Shown in pieces: positions 5,644 through 60,911 of a DNA stretch of 64,000 nt. How positions within the stretch are numbered: position 1 is the first letter of the stretch; each line of letters begins with the position of its first letter. The notes beneath the pieces are model-generated. The model saw only the letters and a program-made list of their open reading frames with translations, did no database searches and had not been told where the DNA came from. The position numbers and the translations under genes were made by a program. This DNA is from Clytia hemisphaerica (lineage: Eukaryota; Cnidaria; Hydrozoa; Leptothecata; Clytiidae): assembly GCA_902728285.1 (NCBI GenBank), contig CACVBU010000795.1:1-64000 (forward strand), written 5' to 3'.

Positions 5644-5810
5644 TGTTAAAGTTTTTATCAGAACGTAAACGTCTCTTCAGGAAGAAAACACAACAAGAAC
5701 TACTCTACAAGAGAAAAAAGATAGTATCGAGCGTAAAAAATGCTCTAAAAAATAATAGCGCATATTACGCATACTATGGTCGCGACAGTGAACTCATTAA
5801 TTATTTAACA
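5644..5810 (-). repeat. Copia 3' LTR
   Basis: A 167-bp LTR with TGTTAAA/TTTAACA termini. It duplicates the two outer pieces of the right-hand LTR (12532-12609 and 13402-13478) on either side of the MITE found there. Confidence 0.9.
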
Positions 5811-8800
5811 CTCCCACTTGACAATATGACAGTGACATGTCATCATTGTCACCAAGTCCAAATATCCCTTAAATGGGTTAACAGTAAGTTTCTACTTTTG
5901 TACTCCAAGTAATGTTCGCAACTGTTCAAATTTTACTTTTGACAAACTTTTCGTGAAAATGTCAGCAACCATGTCGTTAGTTGGACAATACTTCACTTGA
6001 ACAACTTTCTCATCAACAGCTTGTCTGACATAATGATACTTTATGTCAATATGCTTCGTTCTGGAATTAAGTTTCGGATTCTCGCTAAGTCCGATAGCAC
6101 CTTGGTTATCCTCATATAACGTTGTTGGTTTTGTTTGTTTAAAACCAATATCACTTAACAATTGACGTAGCCATACGGCTTCTTGCGTAGAATGACTGAG
6201 GGAAATGTACTCAGCCTCGGTTGTTGACAGGGCAACAACGGATTGACGTTGAGATCTCCACGTTACAGGAGATTTACCGATTTGAAAAACATATCCAGAT
6301 GTAGACTTTCTGGATGACTTATCACCAGCCCAATCAGCATCGGTGTAGGCTGATAATTCAACATTTCTCGATTTCGACGAAACATAAACTAGACAATGAT
6401 CCAAGTTCCTTGGATGTAACGAAATACGCGTTTAACACCTTTCCAGTGTTCTTCACTTGGATGGGACATATATTGACTCAATACTCCCACTGAATAAGAC
6501 AGATCTGGACGAGTTCCGATCGACGCATAGATCAAGGAACCGATAGCAGCTTGATAACTCTTCAGGTTGACAGGTTTCTCATCGGGAGCAAGTTTTTCGA
6601 AAGACTTTCCTGTCTCCATTGGCGTTGAGATTGGTCGGCATTCGTCCATGCCGAATCGTTGCAGAACATTGCGAAGATAAGCGGATTGATCAATTCGAAT
6701 GATCCCAGCTTGTCGATCTCTACGAACTCTCATACCAAGGATGTAATTGATTTCTCCCTGATCGACCATATCAAACTTCTCAGCTAGATTCTTCTTCTCA
6801 CGTTCGAGCAAATTGATATCGTTTGATGCGAGGGTAAAATCATCGACGTAAACAGCAATAATGATCAAAGAAGTTGTGTCGCTCTCTTTGATACATTTCG
6901 AATAAACACATGGGTCAGCATCAGCAACTTTGTACCCATTTGATCTCAAATGACTGTCTGTGAGAAAGCGGATTACGCTAGTGTGGGTTGGATAAGATCG
7001 AATGATAGGTGAAGACATGATGTTATAAAAAGACTGAATATATTTGACAATGAAGACATACTGTCCAAATAATCCCAAACTTTATCTTAGCTGATCTGGA
7101 TTATGCCAATTTATTAGTTAGATGAAAATGAAGATTCATTGTTGTCTTGTCAATGGTCAGGCTTCAACTGTCCTTGCTGGAGAGAATGGACTCTCAAAAC
7201 CACATGGCACAAGGAGGAGAGCTCACTCGGCCCAATCTCCCAGCAAGGAACTCAAAGGAGAAGTGCACTGGGGGTCAGTAGAGATCTAGACTAGCCTCAT
7301 GTTCAAACAATGATCTCTACTGTCAGGGCAAGATGGTAGACCTAGCCATAATATATATTATACAAACATATTATCCATGTAACATATAATACATATTATC
7401 CTATAACATACATATAACAATCATAATATAACCTTAGTTCTGCTTCCTTACATACACCCCCTGTTCACTTTGAGTTGTCCCCAACTCAGCATATTGTCAA
7501 TATAAGTCCCGCTCAGTAAATGTATGTCCATCAATCAAATCCAATAACAATAATCAAACAACATTGTGTAAGTTGATAATTCAAATCATCCAAATAGAAG
7601 TGTCAACAGGTCAATACCAAAACTGATTTAACATACAAACAAACAATCACCGTTATTGGAAAACAAAACAATCACCATTCTTGGTTGAATACATCCATCA
7701 TCCAAAACAGGCCAAAATGAAATTGGTAGTACCTGTGCTGCATCCGTCTATCGTTCAAGGTTGAAATATCAAGTTTCGTGGGGCCCGGGGATGGCAACAA
7801 TATATGATGACGGCTGAGCATGCAGAGCGTGGAGAGCTAGGTTGTATGTCCAATTTTCCTCCGGTGGTCAAATGCATGAAGATGTAGTTGATGTGCATCC
7901 AACCATTTCCAGGTAACATGAAACAAAATAAAAGTGAAGAAGTTAGTCACGAAAATCTCCCCAAGCAAAACCAGCGAGAAATTGGGAGTCAGGAGGCTGC
8001 CACAACCCTTTGCAATTAGGCTCTACCTCCCTTTTCAGCTCACAGCCAGTTTCTGATTAACAATCTTCCCTCCCTGTCTAAGTCCCTAGGGTTAGGAAGA
8101 GGCAAGTCTGTGAGCATAAAGCATCAGCCCGAATTTGGCCATCATCAAGTTGAGAAAGTTGAAAGTTCGCTCATGTACAGGTAGCACCCTACGGTCTATA
8201 TTTGTCACATAGTGTCCCTCCTCCTCTTTCTAAATATGATGGCACCTCTACTCACATTCGATGATATCATTCTTCCATAAAAAGTCAATGTTGTTTTGAT
8301 CATTATCAACACAAACGATTTCGAAAAGTTTGTTTGCAATTTCTTTCACGTCTACGGATACCATTTTTAAATTTCGAACGGGCGTTTACAATTCCGCCCG
8401 ATTTTTCAACAAGTGTCTTATTTGTTTAATTTTCGCGAATGGTAATTGCCCCAAACCATGTTGTTTCTTTCTTTCCTCCTGAACTTCACCGAGCTTGCAA
8501 GCAGCAAAACCAAAACAAACATTGTAAGCATAAACTATATCTTTCTTTTCAAATAAATATCATAGTTAAACCTCTCCTAAACCCATGACCCCTTTTGGGA
8601 GAGACTAGACAGGGAGCTTTTATAAATTTTCTGTGTTCAATGCGATTCTCTTTGCACGACTTTTGATTTAAATAAAAATTCTCAGTTCTAGCTGTCCCAG
8701 GAACAGCTTTTGTGACCAATTGCGGATTGGTCCCCTGGGGGATCAACAATCTACCCCAGGGCCGTAGAAAAATTTGAAAAATGCCAACATTTATACATAA

Positions 8801-8888
8801 ATGTTTTCCTTACTTGCAGGGTAATCAACATCCAAATCCGCAGCTGATTTCACCGACGCCTAGCTCTTCACACCACTCAGCACAGTGC

Positions 8889-9005
8889 TCAGTGCAAATC
8901 CAGCTCTTTATTGTCGTGTTGATTCCGTTGCCAAGATAAGTTTCCATCAATGTTGACCAATGATGGGGCTTGATGTTGTGAAGCCGATGAGATGAAGCCT
9001 GCCAT
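8889..9005 (-). pseudogene. 38-codon frame, possible gag relic
   Basis: It starts with ATG 20 bases after the primer-binding site, where gag normally begins, and stops after 38 codons. The peptide contains VNIDGNLSWQRNQ, which loosely resembles the start of Gypsy-type gag proteins. It is too short to act. A chance frame is a real alternative. Confidence 0.3.
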
Positions 9006-9024
9006 GATCACCAAAACCAACAAC

Positions 9025-9036
9025 CCTCTGCTACCA
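9025..9036 (-). promoter_or_regulatory. Primer-binding site, 3' end of initiator tRNA-Met
   Basis: On the minus strand TGGTAGCAGAGG follows the 5' LTR after one base. It is complementary to the 3' end of animal initiator methionine tRNA (including CCA), the usual start point for minus-strand DNA synthesis in many LTR elements. Confidence 0.75.
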
Positions 9037-12000
9037 ATGTGAGAAAGCGGATTACGCTAGTGTGGGTTGGATAAGATCGAATGATAGGTGAAGACATGAT
9101 GTTATAAAAAGACTGAATATATTTGACAATGAAGACATACTGTCCAAATAATCCCAAACTTTATCTTAGCTGATCTGGATTATGCCAATTTATTAGTTAG
9201 ATGAAAATGAAGATTCATTGTTGTCTTGTCAATGGTCAGGCTTCAACTGTCCTTGCTGGAGAGAATGGACTCTCAAAACCACATGGCACAAGGAGGAGAG
9301 CTCACTCGGCCCAATCTCCCAGCAAGGAACTCAAAGGAGAAGTGCACTGGGGGGTCAATAGAGATCTAGACTAGCCTCATGTTCAAACAATGATCTCTAC
9401 TGTCAGGGCAAGATGGTAGACCTAGCCATAATATATATTATACAAACATATTATCCATGTAACATATAATACATATTATCCTATAACATACATATAACAA
9501 TCATAATATAACCTTAGTTCTGCTTCCTTACATGTCAATAGTGACATTCCATAGACGAGCAGATTGTTTCAGTCCATAAATACTTTTGTTCAGTTTACAG
9601 ACTTTGGACGGATCTTTCACGAAGCCTTCTGGTTGCTTCATAAAAATTTCAGCATCTAATTCACCATTCAAAAATGCAGTTTTGACATCCATCTGATGTA
9701 TATCGAGATCTAATTCGTTGGAAACAGCTAAAACAGTTCTTAACGAATTGTACTTTGCAACTGGAGCGAAGGTTTCATCGTAGTCATTCCCTTTCTCTTG
9801 AGAATAACCTTGGGCGACGACACGAGCTTTGTATTTCGTAATCTCCCCATCTGCACCTCGTTTCTCTTTGAAGACCCATCGACTACCGACAACATTTTTG
9901 CCTTCAGGTAAATCAACTAAGTCCCATGTATGGTTTGCAACTAGCGAATTCATTTCATCGTTAATAGCTTTCCGCCAGTATTCAGCTTTCTCACAGGTTA
10001 TCGCTTGTGTGTAGGTCTGGGGCTCATTGGAATCAACAGCAACATTCGCCAATTCCCACCAATTGCCAGTGATGACACCTAAGCGATCAGGTGCCTTACG
10101 ATCACGTTGGGCATGTTGAGGAACCTCGACAGGTTCTCCTTGAACAGCTTGATCAGGAACGACTCCTGGTACAGCTTCCGGTACAGCCTCTTGCACGACT
10201 ACAGGAGCGACTTCAGGAACAATGTCATTATCGAAATAAAACTGGCACTGTTCATCAACTATGTCCTCTTCCTTAGAATTTCCGGTAACGAGTGGAAACT
10301 CCTTTTCGAAGAACAGGACATCATTACTGCGGATCATCTTTCCGATTTCAGGGTTGAACAATTTGTATCCTTTGCTGTCATTTGGATAACCAACGAAGAT
10401 ACACGGTATGGAACGTTTGTCAAGCTTACTCTTCTGCTTCTCAGACGGAACGTGAACCATAGCTTTACATCCAAATACACGTAGATGACTAACAACAGGC
10501 TTCTTCTCGAACCAGCATTCGAAAGGCGTTTGATCTTTCAGCTTCGATGTTGGACTGCGATTTCGAATGTAGACAGCGGTTGCGACGGCTTCAGCCCAGA
10601 ATTCTAATCCAAGGTTGCTATGATGAAGCATTGATCTTGCGAGGTCGAGGATGGTACGATTCATCCTCTCTGAAACACCATTTTGTTGTGGAGAATAAGG
10701 GATTGTAAACTCACGTTGGATCCCTTTGTCTTTGCAGTATCGATTGAACTCTGTGGACGTGTACTCTCCACCATTATCGGTACGAAGACGTTTGACTGTT
10801 CGCAGTTTCTGCACTTTCTGACCAGTGGCATTCTCCATCAAACTAACATACTCCTTGAATTTCGACAAAGTTTCACTTTTAGCTTTCATTGTATACAGTA
10901 CTGTGTATCTTGAATAATCATCAATGAACGTGACGAAATACTTTGATCCTCCGACAGATTCGGTACTCATAGGTCCACATACGTCACTGTGGATTAACTC
11001 AAGTGGTTGCTTTGTCTCAGAATCTGAACTCTTCGGGAACGAATTTCGGTGCTGCTTTCCGACAGCACACCCTTCACATTTGGGATCGACCGATTTTTCA
11101 GGATTGATGAGCAAACCATTGACAAGTTCTTTCTCATTCAAGAACTTCAGGCTTTCGTAGCCTAGATGACCGAAACGTTCATGCCATAAATCAATATCAT
11201 GTCGAGCTTGAGTAACATAACAAGCCTCGTCAACAGTATTCAGTTTGTACAGTTTTCCGTGTTTCTGACCAATCGTGTAATATTTCTCGTTGATTTTCAA
11301 ATTACATGATTGTCCTTTGAATTCGACTGCAGCTCCTTTCTCGGTTACGGATGGAAGTGAGAACAGTTTATTTTTCAACTTTGGTACGTATAAGACATCA
11401 TTCAGAAGAATGTCGACTTTCTCTTTACCGTTCAAGACAGTCACGCGTACTTGACCTTTTCCAAACGATTGTAGTTGACTATCATCCGCTAATTGAATGT
11501 TTAACGGTTGATCAAATTTCTTGTAATTGTCAATACTCTTTCGTTCATAAGTCATATGCTGTGATGCTCCGGAATCGATCCACCATTCGTCGCCGCTCGA
11601 TTCTTGGTTCGACTTCAAGGCAATCTCCGGCTGTTGATCGGTTACAAGGTTAGCCTTCTCCTTCTTGGCTTTCTCGTCGGCTTTCTTCTTTGCGCAATCT
11701 CGAGCAAAGTGATTCTTCTCATGGCAGTAGTGACAGGTTAACTCCTTCGACTTTTTATCCTTGTTTTTACGATCTCGACCTTGGAATTTCGGAGTTTTCG
11801 ACAGAAATGCATCGTCACATTTCCCTTTCGACATTGGCCTTTTGAATTTCTCTGCTTCATGAATCAAACGATCCCTAACATATTCCCAGGTAAGATTGTC
11901 CTCACCAATTGTTTCTAATGCGGTTATCAGGAAATTGTAATCATCATTCAAACTACTGATTAGTATGATTACCAAGTCATGTTCAGCGATTGGATCACCA

Positions 12001-12515
12001 ATTGCTTCCAAATGTTCAGATATAGTTTTGACGTCGTTTATATGTTGGATGATTTCAGCACCTCTCTCGAGCTTTATGGAATACAACTTTCGTCTTAGTT
12101 GTATCTTACGCGATAAAGTCTTTTGTTGAAAATGCTTTGCGAGACTATCCCAGGCATCCTTGCCAGTCTCTGATGCACGAATATAAATTTGTAGACTTGT
12201 CGAAACAGATAAACATACACTAGCAAGTGCCATGTTCTCTCTTTTCTTAAATTTTCGTTTTTCCTCTGCAGTGGCATTGTCACCAATTTTCTCTGTGCCA
12301 TTGACAATGTCCCATAAATCCTTTCCGATGAGGAACATTTTCATGTTAAATTTCCAATTGTGATAGTTTTCAGCAGTTAGCTTATCGAACTTACAATCAA
12401 AGTCCTTTTCAGCAGCCATCACGAATTATCACAATAATTCAACAATAATCAACAGAGATAATGCACTGGACCAGAATAAACAAAATATCAGTTATCAGTT
12501 TGTTGTGGACGTTGT

Positions 12516-12531
12516 GTCTGGGCTCATAACC
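12516..12531 (-). promoter_or_regulatory. Copia primer-binding site, internal part of initiator tRNA-Met
   Basis: On the minus strand GGTTATGAGCCCAGAC directly follows the 5' LTR. With one mismatch its first 14 bases complement the anticodon arm of initiator tRNA-Met, not its 3' end. This is the half-tRNA priming known from Drosophila copia. Confidence 0.75.
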
Positions 12532-13478
12532 TGTTAAAGTTTTTATCAGAACGTAAACGTCTCTTCAGGAAGAAAACACAACAAGAACTACTCTACAAGA
12601 GAAAAAAGAGGGAGTTTCTAAACATCGACCAGAAATGGCGACCACGACCAGCGACCACGACCGGCGACCAGATAAATTTGGGTTATCGAGTTGACCTGCT
12701 CTCTTCACCGTAGAGAACATCCAAATCGAGTCCTGGTGTGGCTTTCAAATAAACCACTGAACATGTGGCTGAGAATTACTCTATCTAGAATACTAAAAGT
12801 GACCTTTGACGTTACCAGTCATTTTCTAGACAAAGTGACACTTTTTGACAAAAATATTGACAGGGCAATTAAGTGTGATGCCTGTAAACTTTATTACACA
12901 CAGGAAATATTTTAATTGTACCGAATGAGATGCCTTTAGTATGAATGGATAGAAATTGTCAGTAGGAAAAAGCTGGGAAGGCCAGTTTTAGAGATATCAA
13001 TCTCATCAATTATTCTATTGTCCTTACATTGTCAAAATGACTTATTTTGACAAAATAATTATCTGGTGATCAAATATAAAGCTTCCTAAATAAATTCCAG
13101 TACAAATTTTGCCACTAACTAATTTGATGCCGAAAATACAAAAGGATAGAAATTGACACTCTATTCAAGCTCCAAGAGCGTAATGGCTGCTCTGCACGTT
13201 TTGCACGTGGCTTTATAATCACTGTAGGTGAGACAGGGGTGAGCTTTACTCTTCAATTCGATAAATAAATGATCATAAGAGAAAGACTCTACGGTGGAGA
13301 AAGAGGAAAAACTCGATAACCCAAATTTATCTGGTCGCCGGTCGTGGTCGCTGGTCGTGGTCGCCATTTCTGGTCGATGTTTAGAAACTCCCGAAAAAAG
13401 ATCTAAAAATCTCTAAAAAATAATAGCGCATATTACGCATACTATGGTCGCGACAGTGAACTCATTAATTATTTAACA
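12532..13478 (-). repeat. Copia 5' LTR, interrupted by a MITE
   Basis: LTR sequence at 12532-12609 and 13402-13478 matches the 167-bp LTR at 5644-5810. The 783-bp MITE between them splits the element's promoter-bearing LTR. Confidence 0.88.
12610..13392. mobile_element. Long-TIR MITE in the Copia 5' LTR, Mutator-like
   Basis: Inverted repeats of about 85 bp begin GGGAGTTTCTAAACATCGAC and contain repeated CGACCA/CGACCG units. It is flanked by a 9-bp duplication GAAAAAAGA (12601-12609 and 13393-13401). Long TIRs with a 9-bp duplication fit a non-autonomous Mutator-like element. The interior has no transposase; open frames of 68-74 codons there look accidental. Confidence 0.78.
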
Positions 13479-13734
13479 AATTTTCCACCGGGGACGATAT
13501 TTTGGACAATTTTCCCAGTGGGTTTGTGAGAAGGGGGTGTATGCAGCAAGTATTCGCGTTATAAAAGATTCTCTTGACTCAACTACAGATATCCTCTTTC
13601 TATCCGGCTTCTATTCTACAATCTTTTTTATAAGAACCAGGAGAGCTTTGGCGAGTAACCGAAAAACATCCATCCTTAATTTTTAAATCATCTTGCCAAA
13701 ATAGATAAATAAAGAGTGAACATACCAGATGTTT

Positions 13735-15778: not shown

Positions 15779-15904
15779 TTAGGTAATTCATATGCAGTTA
15801 AGAATATCCCGTTGCTCTACGTATCTACGTAAGAAAGATTTCGCCATGAATTCAAGAATGAAAACAGTTCTATCACTTTTATTTTTTTTTATAGGAACAT
15901 CAAT

Positions 15905-18900
15905 ATGAAGGTTTCATGTGTAACTGCTTTTATACTAGTAATTGCAGCTGGTTGCCACATTGCCCTAGCTGACGAATTCAACAACTTTAAAGTTTGTGGG
16001 AAAACAAGCACTGGAGGAAAACTGCAACGTATTGTGGGCGGCGAGAATGCAAACCAGGGCGAACTCCCTTGGCAAATAGGCGTTAGTAATGATGGTCAAG
16101 TTTTTTGTGGAGCAACCTTGATCAGCAAGAAATGGGCTATTTCAGCTGCACATTGTGAAATTAAGCCCGGAAATGAACTCATCCTTGGTGCAAGTGATCT
16201 TAATTCTCAAAAGGAAGGTAAGAAATATAAAAAGTCCTACCGGCTGAAACATCTAAACTCTGTGGTGCAAGGTCAATGGTTTTACCCCCAGCCGAAAGAC
16301 CCTAAGAGAATCTTTTCTTGACGCATCCCTGCTTGATGTATGTAAACAAAAGTGAAAGCGCAGATATCCCAGGGGAAGAAGAGGCGCCTCTCTCATATTT
16401 TGGATAGACAGCTAAGAATATATCCTTTTATAATTTTTTTTGAGAAGCCCATAGTTCTTTTATGATCGGAATTACGGTATTTAACGGCCAAATTCCCGGT
16501 ATCAGCATTTTTGATAGAGGTTTGAGAAATTCTTTGCCAGTGTGCAAGAATTTCATGGCATGCTGTAAAATATTTCCTACAAGTCCTTTACTTTTTAACA
16601 CACGATTACACGCTTTTTTTTTATAAGAATAGTGTTTTTTCATTTCATCATGGATATTCTTAACTTTTTGGCAAAAATCATCCAAAAATATTCTTACAGT
16701 ATTCTTAGGTTAAGATCGAAATTGGCAATCTACAGGTCAAAATGCATTAAAAATGGCATACTTAGGTTCAGTTGCTAAATTCCATGATGATGATATTCTT
16801 AGCACATTCTTAATTTTTTGGCCATTTTCATCATGGACATTCTTATAAAGTGTATTCTTATTAAAAAAAAGCGTGTATATATCTGTTAAACTATCGGTTA
16901 GATTGTAATTGATATCAATTATTTTTATTGTCTAAACAACCTGCCAGAATATTGATGATTATGGTTCACTTCTTTTTCAATTTTAGTGTTCAAGAAACGA
17001 ACAGTCTTGAGAGCTTTTCCCCATGAAAATTACGACTCAGATACCATGGAAAATGATATTGTCTTGCTCGAATTGAATAGAGAAGTCACATTCAACGATC
17101 TCATTGCACCTGCTTGCATTGTTGATAAAAGTAAACATCTGGTCCAAGGAACAACAGCTGTTGTCTCAGGATGGGGTACACTTGAATCTGGAGGAGACCA
17201 GCCAGAAATTCTTCAAAAAGCCGAGGTACGGTTCTATTTTCTATAAGTTGTAAGAAATGACCTCTGGTGTTTTACATAGTTTCTTATTTTTTAACCTTTT
17301 TTACCCTTCCTGAGATTTCAAACATTTCATTCCTTAAAAAAACAAATATTTCGCAAATTTATATTCTGTAGATGCATTATATTCCACAGCAAAGTAAAAA
17401 TATCCAGTCTTTTGGAGCCAGCTAACTATCAAATTTTAATTTTGCATAGAATTTGTAAATTTGTAATTTTAGGTCAACATTGTCTCGAGAGATACGTGTA
17501 ATTCAAAGTATTCGAGTGGTATAACCAAAGTCATGTTATGTGCAGCCGCTCCAGGAAAAGACTCCTGCCAGGTAAGTGGATCTTTTCAAAGTGTCAGAAT
17601 TGAATCTGACTAAAATGAGGTTTTTTAAACTTTTATGTACGTATTTGTCTCACCAACTTTGATCTATTCATCTGTTTGGATACGTTCCTCGACCCAAAAC
17701 TTACTACTGTAATTCTTTATCTCTAGGGTGACAGTGGTGGTCCACTGGTTGTCGATTTAAGAGATAAATGTGGTAATGACCAATATTTTTTGGCTGGTGT
17801 TGTCAGTTTCGGTAGTGGTTGTGCACACCCTGACTATCCAGGAGTTTATGCTGATGTTGCAGCATTGAGAGATTGGATCGATGATAAACTGGCCTCCAAA
17901 GGCAATGGTAAGAACCAGAAAACTTCTCTTTATCCTTTAGATTTCACATATCGCCGTGTCAATTCAAAACAGCCTTAAGTCCATTTTTTCCATTTTGAGA
18001 TAATTGGCTTTAAAGTTTGAGATGTATTGGACTTAAGGCTACACATTTCATGTCAATGCTTCATAGAAAATAAAATTTGCCCTAAAATTTAGGACTTAAG
18101 ACTGTTTATGGTTGATATTATATGGAACATTCTAAGTTCTTATTTTTTTTGAATTGCAAAATACACCTCTTTCCCATTAGAATTCTGTGGACTTAAGGCC
18201 GTTTTTGGAAAGCGTGCATGCTGAAATAGGGGTTATGGTCTTAAGAGTCAATTTTCGAAAAAATGGACTTAAGTCTGTCTTGAAGTGACACGGCGATATA
18301 TGATCTACTAGTCCGATGGGGTCAATAGGGTAAAGTGCAACTAGTAATGGCCTCCAAATGGATTATCCCAGCGTCGACCTTTCATATAAATGCAGCAATA
18401 GTGCTCAACGAGTTATATTGAAGACAAATTGTCGCGATAGAGTGACTTGGAAAGCCCTTGTGTCCAGCGAGCGTTGAGTGTTGCGTAAGCTGCAGCGAAA
18501 TATATTAACGTGGTTTACTAGTCTTTTAGTTTTTAAAAGCTAGGTTGAGCATTTAACATTGTAGTTACTGACTAAAGGTTCAAAAACCATGACGTGGAAT
18601 TGTAAAAATTCGATTAGGAACTTAAAAGTTTTCAAGGTCATGGGATTGTGTTGAATCGGTTTTGCCGTAATCTAATATCACCTCGTAGATAGATATATGC
18701 TGCTTAACCTCACTAATATTGCAAATATATCTTTCCAATTTAATTTAGCGATATTTTAAATCTTCATTGCAGTTAAACCATCAACAGCTGAACACACATG
18801 TGGAGGACCAACACCAACGGATAAACCATCTCCGCCACCAACTGATAAACCATCTCCGCCACCAGGTAAAATTCGTTATTCCTTTTATATCGGTTATATT

Positions 18901-21900
18901 GAAAAACTTGTTTTTAGAATATTCTATAGTTCATAAGCGTGACCTTAAGGACATAATAAAAATAAATACTACCCCAAACAAGGACAAATGTCAAGCATTT
19001 TTTTCCTTGATATTACCATAAGAAAATCCAAAAATTGGCCACTATACAGCGGTGAATCTGAGCGGAGTGTAATCTTTATGGCGGAGAGCTATCATTTCCT
19101 TATATGGAATATTGATAAAAGAAACACTCTCTGTCAGAGATTTTGAAACCCCCCTCAGATCCGCCACTGTTATATACCAAATAAAGCTAATTGCAGTTGT
19201 CTCTCTATTTTTCGATTTTCGTGGGATCTATGATAATTATTCGAATTGAAGAAATATTCGAATTAAAGAGAGTATTTTACATTCATTTCAAGCTGAGGAA
19301 ACCAAGACTTAAGTTCGAATTACAGAAAGATTCTAATCATGGAGGTTCGAATTAGAAAGATTTGACTGCAATATAATAATTTTTCTTCACAGTGGGTGCT
19401 GCTGATTATTTCAATGACAAAGGTGTTTGTGGAACCAATGGTGACACACATTTTATGGAAAACATCCAAAGGATTGTTGGTGGTGTTCCGTCTAAGCGAG
19501 GCGAGTTACCATGGCAATTGGGTTTAAGATATGGTGATGGTCAAAAACCTTATTGTGGTGCCACACTTATCAGTAAACAGTGGTTGATCACAGCAGCACA
19601 TTGTAAAGTGAAGGCAGGTTCTCAAGTTATTCTTGGTGCATATGATTTCGGAAATGGAGGAAATGAAAATGAAAGTAAGTAAATCAATAATTCCGAAACG
19701 AATAAATTAAGAATGAAAAGCTTCACCTTCAAATTTGTGGAGAATACATAGCACGGAATTTCTGCAGATTTCTGTACACGAAATCTGATGTCTTCTGATT
19801 TCTAAGAAACCTTTATTGCCCTATTTGTCTTCCTAAGCGTGTTATTAGTTAATAGTTAGATGTGTTCTGAAATCTAATTTTTTACCGAGATATACTTGTG
19901 CGATGTTTGTTTTTTTCTCCACGAAAGATGTGTTCGGAACATTTCTAGGGTTACTAGGCAACAAGAATACATCAGCTTTCCCTTGATTATACCCCTGTGT
20001 CTCCTAAAACGATTTGTTCTGCATATTAGATGACCTTCATCATACCCCTGTCTCATTAGAACACATCATCATTTCTAGCTGATTGATTTACTCATCAGAA
20101 CAGATCAAAATTTCTAGCTCAAAAATATTCTCAGAATAATCTGAAAAAGGTGCTTTCTTCCCTTGCAATCAAATGCCATGGGTGTTTAAATGCATCCCAA
20201 TCATTAGACTTGCTTACTAGTCTGTTAATTAATCATGTCAGAGAGGGCGGAAATAAAAAGGCGGCGGGCGTTTGCTAGAATAGGAGCTGCGTAGGAGAAC
20301 AAGCAAAAGTTGGTGAGAGGCTGCTGATTAAGGGCTTTCAGCCCTTGCTGCCGGAAAAGTTTCTTCTCACGCTTACCTAACTCCTAAGCTCACTTTTTCT
20401 GCAGGATACCGTTCCAGCCCGACTGGCGTGGCCCGGCTGGCGTGGCCCAACTGGTGTTCCAGTCTACTCAATTATTAATGATTAATTCTTCGATGTTTTA
20501 GGGCACCGTGTTAAACGTACTGTCGCTAAAGTAATTAATCATGAAAATTACGACGACGGAACTTACAACAACGATATTGCTTTGGTCAAATTGAACGCTA
20601 AAATCAAATACACAAAATATATTCGACCAGCTTGTATTGTTGAAGATGGAGAAAAACTTGCTGACGATGCAGAAGTTGTTATCTCTGGTTGGGGAACGAC
20701 TAAATCTGGTGGAAGCCAGCCGAAAGTTTTACAAGAAGCTGAGGTGATAACAATAAAGGGTCGTGATTCTCTCAAAACGATTTATTTTCTTATAAATCAA
20801 TTTAATCGATAAGTTGTTCGAGTCCGAGCCAAAGTTTGAAATCGACCCTTTTAGAGAAAGAACTTCGACGTTTTTCCGACCCTTTGAGAGACTACCCCCC
20901 CCCCCCCCGGAGCAAAGGTTTCCTTTCGAATCCACGACTTTTCAAATTTTCAATCGACTCTATCTATCTTTTAAAGGTCCTTTTCAATCATGCTATTTTA
21001 TCGAGAAAAACTTAGTTTCCCACAAACGTCACAAAAGTGAATCGAGGAAAAACGAGAAAGCTTCACTGGAGACTTTCTCGTCATCCCTCTGATGAAAAAA
21101 AATATCTTATCATTTAATTTGAGATTTTTTATTCAATGTGATATCATTATACCATAGGTTAAAATAGTCAACCATGGAAAATGTGATAATTTGTACGGAC
21201 GTTACAAGATTACAGACAAAATGTTTTGCGCTGCTTATCCCGGTAAAGACTCTTGTCAGGTAAGACTTTTCTGCTTTCCTAAATTTGGTATATCCCAAAT
21301 TAAAAGAGAATAAACTATCGCGAATCAGTTTTTCAAAATTTATCACAAAACTAAAATTGACGCATAAGTTTATTTTCCGTAAAGTTTTCTCATTTATATT
21401 TTCAAAAATTGGGCTTCTAGTCTAGATACAATTTGGTGTGATTAAATCCTCCCTGTTTGATCGTTTACTATCTTCTTTTCTTCACTGAAAATTATGATCA
21501 GAATTGGGTTTCATAACAAAGGGTACAGTCAGTAAGTTCGTAGCATGAAGGTAGAGCATCCACCCGGGGGTGGTACTACTAGGGCAAGATGGGTTATGGG
21601 GATGCTCCGCTGGTCAGGGTACCTTTTTTAACCTCCTCGAGTCCCAGGTAGGGTCGCAAAAACACCAAAATAGAAAAATCAGTCCCTCGTAGGGTGCCTA
21701 TTTTTGGAAAAAAGTAGAAATTTTGAGAAACTTTTGGAATTTCAGTCCCATTCAGGGTCACTTTTTTCGCAAATTTAGAGTCCCACGTAGGGTCCATTTT
21801 TCGAACCTCAGCGGAGCACCCCTGTCGGTCGACAAGGGTAGTACCCCCCCCCCCGGAGCATCCAGCTACGGTGCGCAAGGTTGTGGGTTCGATCCCCAGC

Positions 21901-22337
21901 CGGGTCATACCAAATATTCTCAAAATAGTACTTAATGCCTCTCTGCTTGATGTTCAGCAACTAAAGAGACGGATCTGTGGAGAAAGCTAAATGGAGAATC
22001 CAGGGAAAGTATGGTGCCCTCCCCTGCCTCCGGGTAAACAGCTAGAGAAAAGGGAGCCTTTGGGTCGCCCTCGACTCGCAAACTTACTTACTTTACTTAA
22101 GTAAATTCATTTAAAATATATTTTCTAAACAATATAATGGTATAATTATTTCAGGGCGACAGTGGTGGCCCACTTGTTATTGATAAGAAAAACAATGGCC
22201 GTGATCAATTTTATTTGGCTGGTGTGGTGAGCTGGGGTCTCGGATGTGCCAATGAAAATTATCCTGGTGTTTATGCGGATGTAGCAAACTTGCGCAATTG
22301 GATCCAAGGCAAACTGGAATCAGAAAATGGTACGTAA
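15905..22337 (+). CDS. Secreted protease with two trypsin domains (polyserase-like), nine exons
   Basis: Exons: 15905-16217, 16987-17225, 17473-17571, 17727-17907, 18773-18865, 19393-19674, 20502-20743, 21158-21259, 22155-22337. They sum to exactly 578 codons including TAA. A signal peptide occupies about residues 1-22 (hydrophobic FILVIAAG core, cut near ALA). Domain 1: activation site QR|IVGG at 42/43, catalytic His83 (AAHC), Asp128 (ENDIVLLE), Ser220 (GDSGG). A linker of about 31 residues repeats TDKPSPPP. Domain 2: QR|IVGG at 335/336, His378, Asp427, Ser520. Both triads are complete, and both have Asp six residues before the serine (GKDSCQGDSGG), predicting cleavage after Arg/Lys. A Cys before each IVGG pairs with PACIV in chymotrypsin-type enzymes and would keep the propeptide attached. 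A pyrimidine-rich tract ending ATAG at 15896 suggests a leader intron or trans-splice site. The final exon could instead splice at GT 22330. A weak AATAAA lies at 22882. Confidence 0.88.
16240..16430 (+). repeat. Degenerate SINE relic in protease intron 1
   Basis: GTGGTGCAAGGT, a B-box-like GGTTTTACCCCCAGCCG, CCCTGCTTGATG and a C-rich tail follow the order of the SINE at 1916 and 21537 but have diverged strongly. Confidence 0.4.
16609..16875. repeat. TA-flanked CACGC(T)n MITE (copy 2)
   Basis: Same ends and interior as 4469-4718, including TTTCATCATGGATATTCTTA and the inverted CATCATGGACATTCTTAT, with TA on both sides. It lies in intron 1 of the double protease, before the exon carrying the domain-1 catalytic Asp. 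Confidence 0.78.
17949..18299. repeat. MITE with TATCGCCGTGTC ends in protease intron 4
   Basis: The left arm is TATCGCCGTGTCAATTCAAA and the right arm is the inverse, TTGAAGTGACACGGCGATA, with several GGACTTAAG motifs inside. It begins 41 bp after exon 4, and its first bases supply the codons and stop (17976-17978) that would be used if intron 4 were retained. Confidence 0.75.
21537..22105 (+). mobile_element. tRNA-derived SINE (copy 2), split by a MITE
   Basis: After removing the insertion at 21563-21855, the head GGTAGAGCATCCAGCTACGG with the B box GGGTTCGATCCCC matches the 1916 copy. So does the tail (CTAAAGAGAC, ATCCAGGGAAA, CCTCCGGGTAAACAGCTA, CTTACTTACTT). It lies in intron 8 of the double protease. 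Confidence 0.75.
21563..21855. mobile_element. MITE nested in the SINE, with internal tandem GTAGGGTC units
   Basis: Inverted ends are CCCGGGGGTGGTACTAC and GTAGTACCCCCCCCCCCG. The flanking GAGCATCCA (21554-21562 and 21856-21864) is a 9-bp target duplication inside the SINE head. The interior holds four AGTCCC-N-AGGGTC units separated by A/T-rich spacers. The 109-codon reverse frame across it is a shadow. Confidence 0.72.
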
Positions 22338-24812
22338 TTATTTCGAAAGTGTTCCAATAGGATCTCTTTAACTCGAGCATCTATAAATCGAATATTTCCT
22401 TAACAATGCCTGATAAAACCTTACTCCATAACTCGAAATCTCCTTAACTCGAACAAATTTTTGTTCCCAGTACTAAGGCTCAACTGTACTTTGAGATCAA
22501 AAGCTTTGGAAATAGCTGTTAATTACAAATATAATATATTAAGTAGGTAAATTGCAAGGCAAAAAAAGGCTGTCGAGGCCAATGAAGTATAAGCCCGAAG
22601 GGCTAGAATTGAATCTCCTTGGTAGGATTTGAAGCCAACAAATCCTACCAAAGTTGCGCAGCCTTGAGCGGCTCGCCTGGCTTTTACATAAATGACGGAT
22701 TGAAACTAAAATTTACCGCTAAATTTCGAAAAAAAATATGAATTGTAAACAAAGGAATTGCTAGATTAAATATGTCGTCAAAAATACGGCGCATTTTTNA
22801 TTATATAACATAATTCTAAAACAATGGCATAATCTTTTCTCGCTTTTGTTCACCACAGTAAATTTATCCAAAAAAAAAAGAAATAAATAAGCAATAGAAC
22901 TACGAATAATTACGACCGTAAAATTATGAAAAAAATAACTTGCATAATCTTAAAATAAAAAGAAAGTGAAAGTAATAAACAATGCACAAGAAACATTTTT
23001 GCTCTCAGTTTTAACAATCAATAATCGAATATAGGAATTTCCTTCTTAAAGCAAATAAAAGAATATATTAGAGAACAATATGTTTTGCGGACCGTAATGT
23101 ACGAAGCAAAAAACGGATGCTCTATTATGAGAAAGAATATTTTCTTTCGGTAAACAATTTCCCTATATTGATTCAAGTTATGCAAAAGGGAGAGAGAGAG
23201 TACAGAAGGTGAATGCACGTGGCTTTCACTTTCTTTTTTAATCTATAAAAACGCACTGAAAGCTTTTTAAATATAATTTGTATAATCTTACATAAATTAT
23301 GTTTTTAAAAATAATTGAGTTTCAGCGAATGAAAGTTTGTAAATTGCCTAAATATTTTATCCTGATTAGTATAATTACGCATGAATTAACATATTTTATG
23401 CACGGATCGCGAATCGTGCATCGTAAATCGTTAGATCGTGCATCTTAAATTACACCAACCCCATTATACCTCACCTAAGGCCCGATTTTGATAAAAGTAT
23501 GCTTATGATTTTTTCGAATCTAAAAATTGTCTGCCAACTAGCGAGTCCACTAACTAGCCAAGAAGGTGCTGTCTTTCCAATACCCTCATTATAAGTTTTG
23601 ATTTCAGCAAATCGGTTCTGACAAATTTTATCTAAAGTTTTAAGCTTTTGAGAAATCAGCCCGCGTACTGATAAGTTTTGCAAAATTTACAACCCTTCTT
23701 GGGACTAATCTGGCCGAATTTTGATAGTTTTAGTGGCAAAAAATTGAAATTTTCCCCATTTTCCAGACTTTTGGTGCGATTGAAATTTGATTTTCTGATT
23801 TTTCCAACCTTTAAGGCCGGTGTCCACTTTCTTGCGAAGTGCGCGAAAGATTTTTTCTAAACCGTTTTTGTCTGAAGAAAAGATTACGTCGTAAAAAAGT
23901 TTCGAGCAAACAAAAAAAAAGTTGAAGATATACGTCAATTTTGACCAATGGAATTGCTTCTTTTTTTAATCAACCAATGACGTTACAGATAACGTGAAAG
24001 TTTCGCGCGCTTCGCGCGAAAGTGGACACCAGCCTTTAGTGGGATTTGGAAATCCAAAAAGGTACCTTTAAGGGCGACACATACCCATACCCTTCAATTG
24101 CCCAAGTACCCTCCAAATTGACATGTTCATTAAAACGCACTACTAAATCAATCATGGAAAAATTCCAAAATTAGAACTTTGGCTCAAATTGTCACAGGTC
24201 AATAAAATTTTCGGCAAGTACAAAACGCCTACTACCTACTACTTAATACTTACTACCTATTACTTACTACCTATTGTAAAATAGCTAAAAACGGCTCGAA
24301 ATTACCTTTAAAATATTCAGCATGTTAAAATTAGGAAACTTTGGTGGTAAAAAAGTTAAAACTTCTTCTTTTATCGTACTTTGAAGACTTCAAAATATTT
24401 TCTCTCTTTTATTTTGTTTATGATTTCCCGCGCTTTTTCTATAAAGTTTACTGACACACTTCTTTGTAGAAGAGAAGAATATTTCCTTCGCACAATAACT
24501 TATTTATTCATGTCAGTTTTACGGCAGTTTTATTTATAAGAAATCGATCAATCTAAAAAATTGAAATACTTTAAGTAAGTAGAGCCCTATGTTTCACTGG
24601 GTACTTGCTGAAAATCCTTTGACATGTCTTGACATTTATTGACAAAATGACCCTTTTGAACCAAACTATTGACAGGGTTGTTAAATAGGACCTTTGAAGA
24701 CTTTTTTATGTAGCAAAAATTCTTATTGTGCTCAATAAGATGCTTTCAGTATCGCAAGGTAAGATTTTCAGTAGGAAAATACTACAAAGCGCTCTTTTAG
24801 AGGTGTCAATTT
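22338..24812. other. Intergenic AT-rich stretch with two MITE copies
   Basis: No convincing exon was found. At 23811-24038 a MITE has ends AAGGCCGGTGTCCACTTTC and, inverted, GAAAGTGGACACCAGCCTTT, with GCGCGAAG repeats. At about 24213-24700 the sequence (AAACGCCTACTACCTACTAC, then CGGCTCGAAATTACCTTTAA) is a second copy of the left half of the element at 39340-40197. A perfect hairpin (TGGTAGGATTTG...CAAATCCTACCA) lies at about 22620-22652. Confidence 0.6.
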
Positions 24813-25557
24813 TGTAAGTCCACGCACACACACAGACAAGAATTTGTAACGTTGATTGAATTGATATTGAGGTTCAAGTTCAAACTAAGAAATAAAATGA
24901 ATGAAAATTCCTAAGTTTCTAATTAACAAAATACATTGAGCCTTGAATTATAAATGTATTTGACAAGTAGAGCCTAACTTAACTTAACCTAAGGCCTGAA
25001 CAGTCACTATGCAAAAGGAAACAAAGAAAACAGAAAAAGTGCAAACAAGAAACAAGAAAAATCTACCAGCTGGCCAAGAATGTGTGCTGGAAATGTGAGC
25101 CAGTGAAAATACAAAGTTGAAATTGAAGTAAAATTCTGATTATTGTCATTTGTCATTTGAAGTCATATTGATGTTGACTCTCTCATAGTCAACTTGTGAC
25201 TGAGTAGCGAATGAGAAAAAGTTGGCCTTTTTATAATAGATTTGATACAAAAAAACTAGTTTGACAAGATATAAAAACAATGAATATATAACACTCTTGA
25301 GAAATCAAATGATAATTAAATAAAATGCGTGTGAAATAATTAATTACTAGATAATGACTAAATGACAAAATGATAATTTTGAATGAAAATGAAACACGAG
25401 AATGCACAAGAGAGAAAACACGCTGAAAAAGAAAGCACTGGGAAAACAAAGGACGCTGGGAACAAAAAGACACTGACAAAAACAAGACACTGAAAATTGA
25501 ACTATAAAATATTTTTGCTTTTTTAAATATACTAAAAATTTGATGAATAACATTACA
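24813..25557 (-). repeat. BEL 3' LTR
   Basis: A 745-bp LTR that is a direct repeat of 31317-32118, with CCACGCACACACACAGACAA near one end and TAAATATACTAAAAATTTGA near the other. Open frames of 79-114 codons on the minus strand are LTR shadows. Confidence 0.88.
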
Positions 25558-25579
25558 CTCCCACCAAAAAAGCAAACAT

Positions 25580-27507
25580 TTACCATAATTTACGAATCAA
25601 ATCAACATATAAAGCCATTTCACCCAACTCTTTCATCATATCACAATCGTCCACGTGATGAATAACGACCAATGATCGAACAGCTCGCTTTGTTTCTCGA
25701 AATACTTTTTCATTTTCGTTACGATATCGAATGATGGCCTTACGTGCCACCCCATCACGACCGAATTCGAGACTTTTGACGATTCCATAGGTGTACGAGT
25801 TTGACAGAACTGATTCGTTTTTGGTGAACAAGATGATATCGCCAATGTTGATTCTGTCTGATGTAAACCATTTTTGCTGGTGCATGAGTTTTGGCACATG
25901 GACGAGAAGCCAAACTTCAAACCAGGCATTGAAGATGAATTGGTTCTCCTTGATGATATTTGATGGGTTGGTAGATGATAGAATGCCAGTGGGGCAACGA
26001 TATTGTTTCGTCCAATAGTAAAACGATTCGGCGTTATCAAGTCGAGACATTCGAAGTCTCCCACATGTTACCAACAGCCAAGGGCAAGTTGTTAATTTGA
26101 TTGCCAATAGATGATGATAACGTTTCCCACTGAAGGATTGAAAGACGTTGGTTGTGAACAGATTTTTCGATCGAACTGTTGATTTCACGAATTTTTCGTT
26201 CTACTTTTCCATGCATTGAGTGGCCTTGAACTGGACAGAATTCGAACTCAACACGTGCTTGTTTCATCAGTTTGGATTTGATATCAATGAAATCAAGTCG
26301 CATTTCTTTGCAGGTTTTGATGAGTTGACCTCCTTCGTCACAAAGAAGTCGTTTCGGGTAACCGTGGTCACAGGAGAAGCGATTGAAAGCAAGGATGAAT
26401 GATGTCGTTCCATAATCGTCCAAAACCTTGATTTTGACAGCTGATGTAGAGCAACAGCAGAAGACAACCAACCATATTTTGGCTGTCTTTCGTTTGTGAT
26501 GTGGTGTGTAGCATTGAAACGGTCCAGATAGGTCGACTTGGGTGTAGGAGAATGCTGGAGCTATGGTGATATTGCATCTGGAGATTGGACCCATAGCCAT
26601 GTCGATGGTTCGTTTGGCCAAAAACTTGCAACGTTGACACGAACTTTTGATGGATTTGATAAGAACTCGACCTTCGAGGATGTAAACTTTCTTGAGGACA
26701 TAGCGAAGTGTGGACTCTATCCCAGCATGACTGACTTCTGGATGATTCCAATGTGTGTCGAGGATGATACTATATGCAATTGGTGATCTTCTGTCTATAA
26801 CTGGTACACAAAAGGATGTCGAAGATAAATCTTTCATTGATTTGGTGAAACGTCCAACTATGGATACTTGATCATCGGCGAGGATTCGACCAGTGTACAC
26901 CAAGATTCCATTGTCGTTGAGTCTGGTGATATTTTCATATTTTGGTTTTGGAAGGAATTGAGTTATCTCTTGTGATCCTTTCCTGTAGAAATACGTCTCA
27001 GCAGCTTTGATCTCGTAATCGTTAATGAGAATGGTTGAATGTTTCAAAATGGTGAGTTGGGAACGAGATTTATCTTTTGTACGTTTGAGTAGAGTGTAAA
27101 TATACTTGAAGACGATTGCCATGATACGAATAACTGTAGAAAACTTGTGTTGATTTGGGTTCAGAAGGTATTGAGAGAATTTAGCCCTTTCAGATGTTTC
27201 TTTGAATGATAAGATGTGATAACTTTGAACGATAGTATGTTCCTTGTTGATTTCAACCATCTGTTTGTTGGAGATCGTAACTTCAGAGCTGATGGATGGG
27301 AAATGATGACTTGATTGCTCATCCATGATGTCCATTGATCCAATTAGATGATTGGTCGATATCCTGGAATGTGGCTCCTCTTCTGGTGCCAAGGTCTGCA
27401 AGGTTTTGATATGTTGGAATGTAGTACCACTTTCTTGTCCGGAAACGAAGGATTCTAAGACGCGACTTCGAACCCACTTTTCAAAGGTTTGTCGTCTTGC
27501 TTATCCA
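25580..27507 (-). pseudogene. BEL integrase and C-terminal domain, frameshifted
   Basis: The main frame (27401-26037) contains a zinc-binding HHCC region (THWNHPEVSHAG, then CQRCKF) and a DDE integrase core: Asp in TQVDLSGP, Asp in LLCDEGGQL, Glu in GKVERKIREI. At about 26060 the frame shifts into FECLDLITPNR and shifts again by about 25980. The C-terminal DUF5641-like domain (WFTSDRINIGDIILF, then RAVRSLVVIHHVDD) follows and ends at 25580. The integrase would insert the cDNA into host DNA. Upstream coding is lost in the assembly gap. Confidence 0.85.
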
Positions 27508-28163
27508 NNNNNNNNNNNNNNNNNNNNNNNNNNNNNNNNNNNNNNNNNNNNNNNNNNNNNNNNNNNNNNNNNNNNNNNNNNNNNNNNNNNNNNNNNNNNN
27601 NNNNNNNNNNNNNNNNNNNNNNNNNNNNNNNNNNNNNNNNNNNNNNNNNNNNNNNNNNNNNNNNNNNNNNNNNNNNNNNNNNNNNNNNNNNNNNNNNNNN
27701 NNNNNNNNNNNNNNNNNNNNNNNNNNNNNNNNNNNNNNNNNNNNNNNNNNNNNNNNNNNNNNNNNNNNNNNNNNNNNNNNNNNNNNNNNNNNNNNNNNNN
27801 NNNNNNNNNNNNNNNNNNNNNNNNNNNNNNNNNNNNNNNNNNNNNNNNNNNNNNNNNNNNNNNNNNNNNNNNNNNNNNNNNNNNNNNNNNNNNNNNNNNN
27901 NNNNNNNNNNNNNNNNNNNNNNNNNNNNNNNNNNNNNNNNNNNNNNNNNNNNNNNNNNNNNNNNNNNNNNNNNNNNNNNNNNNNNNNNNNNNNNNNNNNN
28001 NNNNNNNNNNNNNNNNNNNNNNNNNNNNNNNNNNNNNNNNNNNNNNNNNNNNNNNNNNNNNNNNNNNNNNNNNNNNNNNNNNNNNNNNNNNNNNNNNNNN
28101 NNNNNNNNNNNNNNNNNNNNNNNNNNNNNNNNNNNNNNNNNNNNNNNNNNNNNNNNNNNNNNN
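27508..28163. other. Assembly gap (656 N)
   Basis: The run of N lies exactly where BEL reverse transcriptase and RNase H should be. Those domains normally need well over 1.5 kb, so either the gap size is only an estimate or this copy carries a deletion. The apparent open frames crossing it are meaningless. Confidence 0.98.
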
Positions 28164-29589
28164 CCATACGACTCTCAAGGTATGAAGTTGTGGATCGATG
28201 TGTCCTTGAGCATTGATTGTTGTTGAGCATTAAGATTTTCAATGTAGTCCACAAAACCAAGTCTTGAAGTTTTGCTTCAGATGAATGATTTCGACTTTAT
28301 CTGATGGAGATGTTGAGTTTTCGAAGCTGTTGGTGATATATCTTCAGGGCGATGCTCTTGTTTGGTGCCAACTTGGTGAGAGGGGCAACAAAGGGTAGAG
28401 TTGCAGTGAGTGACAGTTTTCGTATCAGGGTCGATTTTAACAGATGAATCAATGATGTTCTGCTCATATTCTTCTTTGATGCTGATTTCCTCTGGGATGT
28501 TTTGAATTTTCAATCGTTGCATTCTCTGCACTTGATGCACCGATAAGATATGGTTGTGAACCAGTTTGATTCTATCTCTTCGAATTGCTTGATGGGATAC
28601 GATGAGTAAGAAAATAACTTGTTGACATCTGGATTCACTTGAATTCCAGTTCGGTACAATGATAATTGATCACTCAAAAATCCAAGGAAGTTGGTTTGAT
28701 TGAAGAATGTTTGATGAATTTTCGTGAAAATCTCATGAGGTTCCAATAACCCCACGACCACCATCTTGTGTTGAAAACTGATTCATAGATCGTCAGTCCT
28801 GACGCAAGTTGATATACGACTTTTGGGTGATATCGTAAATAGCTAATACCAACCATGAAGTGGACATCTCCTCCGATACTTGAAGGTACAGATGGAAGTC
28901 GAGTTGAACAATGATCGGATGAGTGGTAGCTTTGAGCAATCTCCGTGTAAACATCAGTGAGTGGATACTGTGGAAAGGTAGCGGTTATCGTATCAAGTGA
29001 TATGCCATTGAATGATGCTAAATTGCCATCGTGCATTGGGATTTTGACGTTGAAGGTTCCAAATGACTGCAATGATGTTTGACCAACTCCGCCGATGGAC
29101 GTAACTTGGGATGACATTTTTGTAGCTCTTGAACCAAGTGATTGAATGCTGAACGTTTGACGATAAAGTCACTACACCTGTGTCATAGAAGATAGTGTAT
29201 GGGGTGTTGTCAATTGAGATTGTTTGTAGCATGTAGATACCACGCTGGTCAGTTGATTCTTTATCACCAGATGTTGCAGTCGTCTTGAACGATTCATGTG
29301 CATGAAATGATAACTGATGTTTTTGGAAAATTCTGGCAGATTGGAGCTTCGGACACAGCGTTTGTAAGTTGATAACAAATCTTTGTTGACTTGATCCTCC
29401 TTGTGGTCGTTGCAAACAAGGACGTGTTTTTTGGTTGGATACTTCTGGTGGATAGGATTTGGGCAGTGTGTAATCACGTTGACATCTCCCTTCTTTGTGC
29501 TTAGGTGATGAAGCATCAGCACCTGGAAAAAGACACTGAAAGCAGTATCTTTTGCTTCTTAGTAATGTGAGTCTATCAGCTGGACTCAA
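28164..29589 (-). pseudogene. BEL protease to reverse transcriptase start, frameshifted
   Basis: Minus-strand pieces in several frames line up with BEL/Pao pol. There are Cys/His-rich stretches (YCFQCLFPGADASSPKHKEG); an aspartic-protease motif FYDTG near 29200; a GGVGQTSLQSFGTFNV segment, with SLDTITATFPQYPLTDVY and DVHFMVGISYLRYHPKVV following; then IPEEISIKEEYEQNIID leading toward reverse transcriptase up to the gap. The frame changes at least at about 29430, 29120, 28780 and 28430. These may be real decay or sequencing errors. Confidence 0.8.
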
Positions 29590-29591
29590 TT

Positions 29592-31176
29592 CTACAAACT
29601 TCTTGCAGGTGTAGTACTGTAGAATCCTGGTGCCTCCAGGACCAAGAGTGGATACATGTTCATCAGTTCCGTCTTTTGCACCACAGATAAAGCAAATGGG
29701 CTCAGATTGAGGTATGGAAGGAAAAGAAAGAAAAATCCATACCTCTGAGTCCCGTTGTTCTTTGATGAGTCTTGATTTGATCCAGTTCGTTTGGATGAAT
29801 CTTGGTTGTTTGGACGTTTGTGATCGGTCTTGTTGTCTTGAATGCTTGATTTTACTGTCAGCTTCTGGTGTTGGATTTTCAGCTCATCTTCGAGGAAGGT
29901 GCACATTTTGACCAAGTCTCTTCAGTGTAAGAGACGTGACGTTTGATATCTGTGTTAACCATCTTGATAGCCTGGCATCACCAAGCAGGTTATAGACTTT
30001 GTTGATTGCACCACCGTAATACAGATAATTCTCGACGTGATGTTCCCTTGCCAAAGATGTAAGGTCCTTGATGAGGTTGACAATATTGGTCATTGATTCA
30101 ATGATTGATCCAGTGTCTTTGGAGCGTTGAATGGAACTTGATGACGTCAGTTGGTTGATTTTTCTTTGGAGGATGAGCATGACGTTGCCATAGGCTTGAT
30201 TCAGTCGATCCCAAATTTCGTCTATGTCATCTTGAGTTTGGACACAACTCAGGGCTGGTTCCTTCAGATAGTTATTCTTGAGTAAATCAGCAAGTAGATG
30301 TTTCGGAGTAGTTTTGAGATGTAGTTTTTCAAATTTTGACTTGAAGGTATAAATATCGATACTATCTGAATATCCAGAAAATTTCTCAAGTTTAATGTTC
30401 AGGTTCGATTCAGAAAACAACTTTTGCTTATAGACTTGACGGTCATCGATTTCTTTGTTGAGATCTCTGATGTACACAGATTTTGATAAAGTCAAATGAT
30501 CATACCGTTCCAATAGACGTTGGATTGCTTCTGTAGTAGTTTCATTGTTGGTTTCAGCTGAAGAGATGGATTCAAGACGTTTTGAAGTTTCATTGACTAA
30601 GTTGATATGTGATGATAGATTTGATTTCATGTCCATTAACTCCTCGTTAGAACAGTCTTTTGGTTGGCGTGAGAACTGAGTAATAAGCTCCTCGATAGAA
30701 TTTTTGGAATCTTTTATTGAGAATAGAAGTGATTTTTCCTTACGGTCAACAGCATCACTTTCCTGCTTTGCTTGTACCATTTGAAAATGACGTTTGGATT
30801 TGGTAGCATCCTTGATGTAATCCTTCATCACGTTGAGTGTCTCTAGGATGGTTGTTGTCAAGATTGGATCGGGGGTTTCAGTAACGAGAGTTTGTTCATT
30901 GGAACGAATGGATTTACGTAACTCGATTAACCTCTCGATGACGTCTTTGTAGTCAGCTCCAGGTTCGACAGGATTTTCGTCAATAGTGTCAGCTACCTCC
31001 TGGATAAGGACTTTGATGTTGATTGCAGATTGAGATGGCATCTCGTTGAATGTTGATCTTGTTGAGTAGATTTGAAATTCAGTTGAAGACTCCTTTGACG
31101 TGGCAACTTTCTCGACTAGCTGCCCAGTAGAGTTGAGTATTTTGTAATCGATCCGACGAAGATTACGTCTTGACAT
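29592..31176 (-). pseudogene. BEL gag (DUF1759-type), frameshifted at its end
   Basis: A 430-codon frame from ATG 31176 to 29884. The N-terminal half is rich in Lys/Glu and probably coiled coil. The C-terminal half has the gag core with KLEKFSGYSD, YTFKSKFEKLHL and DDIDEIWDRLNQAYGN, typical of the DUF1759 gag of BEL/Pao elements. It stops at 29884, but the homologous text (VKMCTFLEDELKIQHQKLTV) continues in another frame (29915-29592), so one frameshift separates gag from the zinc-knuckle region. It would form the particle shell. Confidence 0.85.
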
Positions 31177-31316
31177 TCACGTAAATTGAGTAACGTGAAC
31201 AAGTTGATAATAAATTGAGAGATTTGACTGATTCAGTTGAAATAAGTTGAATGAATTGAATTGATTGAAACGATTTGCTGCACGATCAGCGGTTGTTGAG
31301 ATGGGTCCTGTTTGAA

Positions 31317-48488: not shown

Positions 48489-60911
<12,423 letters not shown>

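Follow-up and report, generated by a model that had tools for sequence, protein, structure and literature searches.

A predicted secreted two-headed trypsin in Clytia hemisphaerica and its one-, two- and three-block relatives

A 64,000-nucleotide stretch of the genome of the hydrozoan Clytia hemisphaerica—the first 64 kb of contig C547, here called the window—contains a gene whose product is probably a secreted, two-headed S1A serine protease of polyserase-like architecture, made, in the model that we prefer as a whole, of trypsin blocks with a C-terminal tail. The window gene model and three related loci in the same genome agree in predicting a polyserase architecture, that is, at least two S1 domains in one polypeptide.

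Materials and Methods

The genome searched was the 417-Mb assembly of 951 contigs. Relatives of the window gene were fetched as 40 kb of contig C729, 30 kb of C374 and 20 kb of C144, together with short stretches of C144, C274, C589, C49 and C672. Splice sites were ranked by a simple consensus score over all GT or all AG dinucleotides of the window, using a generic score table.

Results

Gene model

The window gene consists of nine exons on the forward strand between 15905 and 22337 (Table 1), which sum to 1734 nt and translate into 577 amino acids followed by TAA; the total of 578 codons given by the first-pass annotation holds only if the stop is counted. All eight inferred internal introns have GT..AG ends, and reading through the model returned the intron phases previously given as far as exon 8, along with the linker exon at 18773-18865 that had been said to join the two domains, in phase 1 on either side. 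The hydrophobic N-terminus encoded by exon 1, read by eye, was taken as a signal peptide.

Table 1. Parts of the window gene and features near its 3' end (window coordinates; a slash within a motif marks the cleavage or splice point).
Feature	Position	Strand	Description
Residual 5' UTR	15895..15904	+	10 nt before ATG; splice acceptor AG ends at 15894
Exon 1	15905..16217	+	Putative signal peptide, propeptide with Cys31, R42/I43VGG, His83; ends in phase 1
Exon 2	16987..17225	+	Asp128, Cys148 (C122 equivalent); phase 1 to 0
Exon 3	17473..17571	+	Pocket Asp214; phase 0 to 0
Exon 4	17727..17907	+	GDSGGP with Ser220 (AGT codon), extra Cys232; ends in phase 1, ATG/GTAAGA
Exon 5	18773..18865	+	Linker rich in Pro, Thr and Lys, including Cys287; phase 1 at either end
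Exon 6	19393..19674	+	Propeptide 2 with Cys321, R335/I336VGG, His378; phase 1 to 1
Exon 7	20502..20743	+	Asp427, Cys447; phase 1 to 0
Exon 8	21158..21259	+	Pocket Asp514; phase 0 to 0
Exon 9	22155..22329	+	GDSGGP with Ser520 (AGT codon); probable end is a phase-1 donor, ATG/GTACGT
GTACGTAA	22330..22337	+	Stop of the first-pass annotation; taken as the beginning of an intron, mirrors the donor after exon 4
End of homology with C729 (22769) and single N (22799)	22770..22799	+	Candidate assembly join or rearrangement
Alternative terminal exon, VNLSKKKRNK-stop	22859..22890	+	Acceptor in top 0.96% of AG, AATAAA at 22882; weak

The AG ending at 15894 scores as an acceptor within the best 0.20% of the window's AG dinucleotides. 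An acceptor-like AG 10–15 nt upstream of the ATG was seen by eye at five of the six gene starts examined, the C729 gene copy uncounted (window 15894, C729:438598 at 438.6k, C144:940.9k, C144:926.9k and C374:468.8k); at the C274 start the nearest such AG stands 24 nt from the ATG. An AG so near the ATG is as expected under spliced-leader trans-splicing or with a conserved 5' UTR intron.

Two trypsin domains with intact catalytic features

The two complete trypsin domains first annotated were recovered by Pfam: Trypsin (PF00089) matched two stretches of the predicted protein, with a whole-protein score of 429.8 bits, the cut-off being 20.6 (E = 3e-129), with a weaker match to DUF1986 (residues 55–160, E = 7.5e-11) inside the first stretch. 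The best solved relatives include enteropeptidase, plasma kallikrein, hepsin, a hepatopancreas trypsin (2f91) and chymotrypsin. The first and second domains (D1 and D2) are 52% identical to each other in an alignment of 267 columns (E = 5e-95), a likeness that is real and far beyond chance.

Both catalytic triads, earlier called intact, can be read from the sequence and from the alignment of D1 with D2 (H83/D128/S220 and H378/D427/S520), and the trypsin-type pocket aspartates are likewise present as D214 and D514, within the motif KDSCQGDSGGP of both domains. The catalytic residues of D1 and of D2 align with those of solved proteases, the pocket Asp189 position of D1 was matched to 2f91, and GDSGG occurs in each domain. 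Both heads also carry an R/IVGG activation site, with Gln-Arg before IVGG, and both use the codon AGT for Ser195. On these features of the sequence, both halves should be active and should have trypsin-type specificity.

One gene rather than two

The evidence is good that the two trypsin blocks belong to a single gene, and the same kind of architecture recurs at C729, C374 and C144. Blocks with apparent signal peptides of their own do lie near multi-block loci (C729:438609 and C144:926.9k), as might be expected if the window held two adjacent trypsin genes with tails, transcribed into separate mRNAs; but exon 6 starts at a phase-1 acceptor and has no in-frame ATG ahead of its propeptide Cys, the linker is in phase 1 on either side, and at C144 a single exon serves both as linker and as first exon of the second head, all of which makes two genes very unlikely. 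A filtered search for an independent start of D2 within 17901–19392 gave four weakly hydrophobic ATG frames, none of them convincing.

The 3' end of the gene

The TAA at 22335-22337, at which the first-pass annotation ended the gene, is probably intronic. Exon 9 has, at the position aligned to the end of exon 4, the sequence ATG/GTACGT in phase 1 at 22329/22330, a donor conserved in C729 and ranking within the best 1.5% of the window's GT dinucleotides. A fourth phase 1 for domain 2 needs a splice at this point, so that the stop would fall in the intron, as bases 6–8 counted from 22330. An in-frame stop just within an intron can make a gene model appear complete.

In the C729 copy, which keeps the exon 9 donor, a phase-1 exon ending in a stop follows about 1.4 kb further on (C729:425616-425764) and encodes a Pro/Thr-rich tail, VHPASGGIKPPVTGAPVTPVKPSPTTAPAPEPTDESSGYSGSGDGNYEI; its acceptor scores outside the top 7% by the same kind of consensus score. 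The compact form of signal, linker and double protease described earlier is therefore probably a protein without its C-terminal tail, given the tail exon of the C729 copy. A copy of this exon was sought in the window and none was found; either the window copy has lost its tail, or the scaffold was wrongly joined or rearranged near 22769-22799. The alternative terminal exon at 22859 was ranked below a C729-type tail: it is on the far side of the N, and nothing in the fetched C729 sequence matches it.

That the gene simply stops at 22335-22337, yielding a 577-aa protein without a tail, is unlikely, although the reading frame is open through to the TAA, the window holds no C729 tail exon and, if the layout past 22769 is real, translation of this copy may run on into the intron. 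Against such an ending stand the conservation of the donor at 22329/22330 and its match to the exon 4 donor, the phase-1 exon seen after the last block at each of C729, C144 and C374, and the further phase-1 donor at which the C144 and C374 tail exons themselves end, so that more may follow.

The C729 copy and purifying selection

The C729 copy matches the window protein at 95–100% identity in in-frame tblastn pieces; at the DNA level, aligned pieces 90–99% identical run from 683 to 22769 of the window, and the flanks differ beyond. The 31-aa peptide of the linker exon is 100% identical in the two copies. Of 575 codons, 570 could be compared; they differ at 16 synonymous and 12 non-synonymous positions (pN/pS 0.21), with five changed residues and seven silent codons in D1 and six changed and seven silent in D2. 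Since diverging from the C729 copy, the window gene has been under purifying selection. The C729 copy lacks single bases at three points in exons 1 and 6, and 3 bases in exon 4; these deletions may be sequencing errors or decay, and one of the two copies may be defective or poorly sequenced.

It is quite unlikely that the window gene is instead a degenerating duplicate of C729, cut by a rearrangement at 22769 and left without a useful protein. The end of C729 homology at 22769 and the different flanks of the downstream LTR element at the two loci would agree with degeneration, but the nine window exons are all open and the pair is constrained, the frameshifts belong to C729 and not to the window copy, and the break is close to an N and may reflect a join made in assembly.

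Elements and other genes around the locus

A Copia-type retroelement lies at 5644-13479 on the reverse strand, with a 965-aa open frame (Pfam gag, integrase and RVT_2). It is absent at the matching place in C729, where a 5–6-bp repeat marks the empty site, and is probably a young insertion. Downstream of the gene, at 24813-32120 on the reverse strand, there is an LTR element with ends 97–98% identical, a 656-N gap inside and a match to DUF5641, which we take to be typical of BEL/Pao; its flanks differ from those of the C729 copy. Two inverted-repeat stretches, at 16594-16890 in intron 1 and 17944-18303 in intron 4, are respectively missing and altered in C729, so these introns of the window gene may carry young short transposons. 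The window also holds, both on the reverse strand, a protein kinase fragment at 53340-53687 (Pfam Pkinase, E = 1.2e-12), presumably GSK3-like, and a 476-aa open frame at 45563-46993 with no Pfam match at E 0.001.

Relatives in the same genome

Used as a query against the genome, domain 2 had at least 138 exon-level matches, the window's own among them; Pfam Trypsin had at least 156. Longer relatives, which had been thought plausible, do occur: the C374 locus was modelled as a signal, three trypsin blocks, two linkers and a tail exon, in 15 exons and 938 codons in frame, with phases 1-0-0-1 in all blocks and 1-1 in all linkers. At C144, two blocks, a linker and a tail exon form a model of 9 exons and 596 codons with matching phases, the linker being fused with the first exon of the second block. 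The Ser195 codons are AGT, AGT and AGC at C374 and AGC and AGT at C144.

C274 has one trypsin block with its own start, C589 at least two blocks, and C729:438609 a single block with an apparent signal peptide of its own and then further open sequence. The one block at C672, in which GDGGGP replaces Ser195 with Gly, looks dead. A Pro/Thr-rich phase-1 exon was sought in the stretches fetched from C589, C274, C49 and C672, and none was convincing; three overlapping linker candidates at C589:19903-19933, the only ones that a filter returned, were set aside for their weak acceptors and unlikely donors. A C374-like trypsin block, with an apparent signal peptide of its own, lies at C144:926.2-925.4k, where exon 2 seems to be interrupted by inserted sequence. 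Equal trypsin exon scores at C55:19099-19320 and C458:42008-42229 hint at haplotype copies retained in the assembly.

Block identity is 91–94% within C374 and 94% within C144. In the window gene, D1 is 59–60% and D2 56–57% identical to the C374 domains, against the 53% that they share with each other. Phase-1 exon-block duplication, proposed earlier for the window gene, is the kind of event that fits C374 and C144, with their repeats 91–94% identical. A single duplication within the window gene is not supported; D1 and D2 are each closer to the C374 domains than to each other. The tree places D1 with C374 (support 75/86, below the tool's mark); a clade of D1 and D2 has a borderline AU p of 0.046, and long branches weaken the tree. 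Judged by these identities, the C374 and C144 repeats are recent and the window's D1/D2 pair is old.

Linker composition and cysteines

In the exon 5 linker, all three lysines precede proline. The same holds for 5/5 Lys or Arg residues in four interdomain linkers (817/200000 shuffles as high), for 9/9 when the C729 and C144 tails are added (8/200000) and for 12/16 over all seven linkers and tails (2/200000). Because the linkers share ancestry, these shuffles overstate significance; the linker ends were chosen by the analyst, and the C729 linker, identical to that of the window, was left out of the count. The C374 tail breaks the rule, with 3/7. Inside the domains the figures are 1/25 for D1 and 2/33 for D2, and across seven domains 1 or 2 of 20 to 33.

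Trypsin cuts poorly before proline. With Lys followed by Pro throughout, the hinge would be expected to resist its own enzyme. A Lys-Gly stands directly before Cys321, and a cut there could free head 2.

Cysteines of the propeptide and C122 type are present at 31/148 and 321/447, the Cys1/Cys122 places of chymotrypsin; for D1 the C122 place was aligned to solved proteases. Two extra cysteines, Cys232 in head 1 and Cys287 in the linker, are also found in C729 and are absent from the modelled C374 and C144 blocks and linkers.

Discussion

In the scheme that we propose, the unit would be a trypsin block of four exons (phases 1-0-0-1) with a Pro/Thr-rich exon in phase 1 behind it; this last exon would serve as a hinge if another block follows and as a C-terminal tail if none does. 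Each head would start as a zymogen, and a cut between Gln-Arg and IVGG would yield an enzyme that cleaves after Arg or Lys. In principle one head could activate the other, since the pockets of both are trypsin-type and Arg is the last residue of each activation site. Disulfides Cys31-Cys148 and Cys321-Cys447 would hold each cut head to its propeptide, so that the activated protein would stay a covalently tied pair. Secretory cells would probably use such an enzyme for extracellular protein breakdown or for local proteolysis.

The proline rule of the linkers and the propeptide cysteines, taken together, suggest a tethered pair that resists autolysis. More tentatively, and as a possibility that we rate below even chances, the family may consist of self-arming, self-tied proteases, in which a cassette of phase-1 trypsin block and proline-guarded hinge was copied to give trypsins with two and three heads, which would activate each other in cis and remain linked through propeptide disulfides; in the window protein a C232-C287 bond would then lock the hinge onto head 1.

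The architecture of the window gene is already known, and to call it unusual, as had been done, was an overstatement: double and triple trypsins have been published from man, beetle, Nematostella and Trichinella. What is new here is the observation of Lys or Arg before Pro in the hinge. Nematostella vectensis NVJ_127465 also has several trypsin domains in one gene, and its authors read the single clade formed by the domains of this triple trypsin as tandem domain duplication; it differs from the window gene in having three domains and in being grouped with chymotrypsins, a comparison made from its published description (PMC6767649).

Human polyserase-3 resembles the window protein in being secreted, in its two protease domains and in its free cysteines; Cys pairs were predicted to hold each domain to its propeptide, and its authors proposed retention in one chain (PMC1435904). 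It is unlike the window protein in that it has no R/IVGG in either domain, an atypical GLSGA in the second domain and a TCN codon for Ser195 (PMC1435904), as against R/IVGG and GDSGG in both domains and AGT codons in the window. Polyserase-1 and -2 likewise have several serine protease domains per chain, but these number three and use TCN for Ser195; polyserase-1 is described as membrane-bound and as releasing its domains, and polyserase-2 as active in its first domain only (PMC1435904). Since Ser195 is reported as TCN in all human polyserase domains (PMC1435904) and is AGT in the window, the window gene would be polyserase-like in design and not a polyserase by descent, as far as this codon tells.

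Tenebrio polypeptidases and Nudel, as described in PMC11172050, share with the window protein two or three tandem S1 domains in a secreted or membrane protein, but in the seven proteins of that account there are inactive homologue domains together with Sushi or LDL modules; the authors suppose that the heads of the beetle polypeptidases are retained in one disulfide-tied molecule (PMC11172050). Trichinella spiralis TsSerP and TS 15-1 are also described as having two trypsin domains in one secreted protein, and the zymogram reported for TS 15-1 has activity for the C-terminal recombinant half only (PMC6233931).

The hinge would supply a testable rule for tying trypsin to trypsin without the tie being cut. 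The one-, two- and three-block genes of this genome, with their matching phases, form a natural series for the origin of multi-headed proteases.
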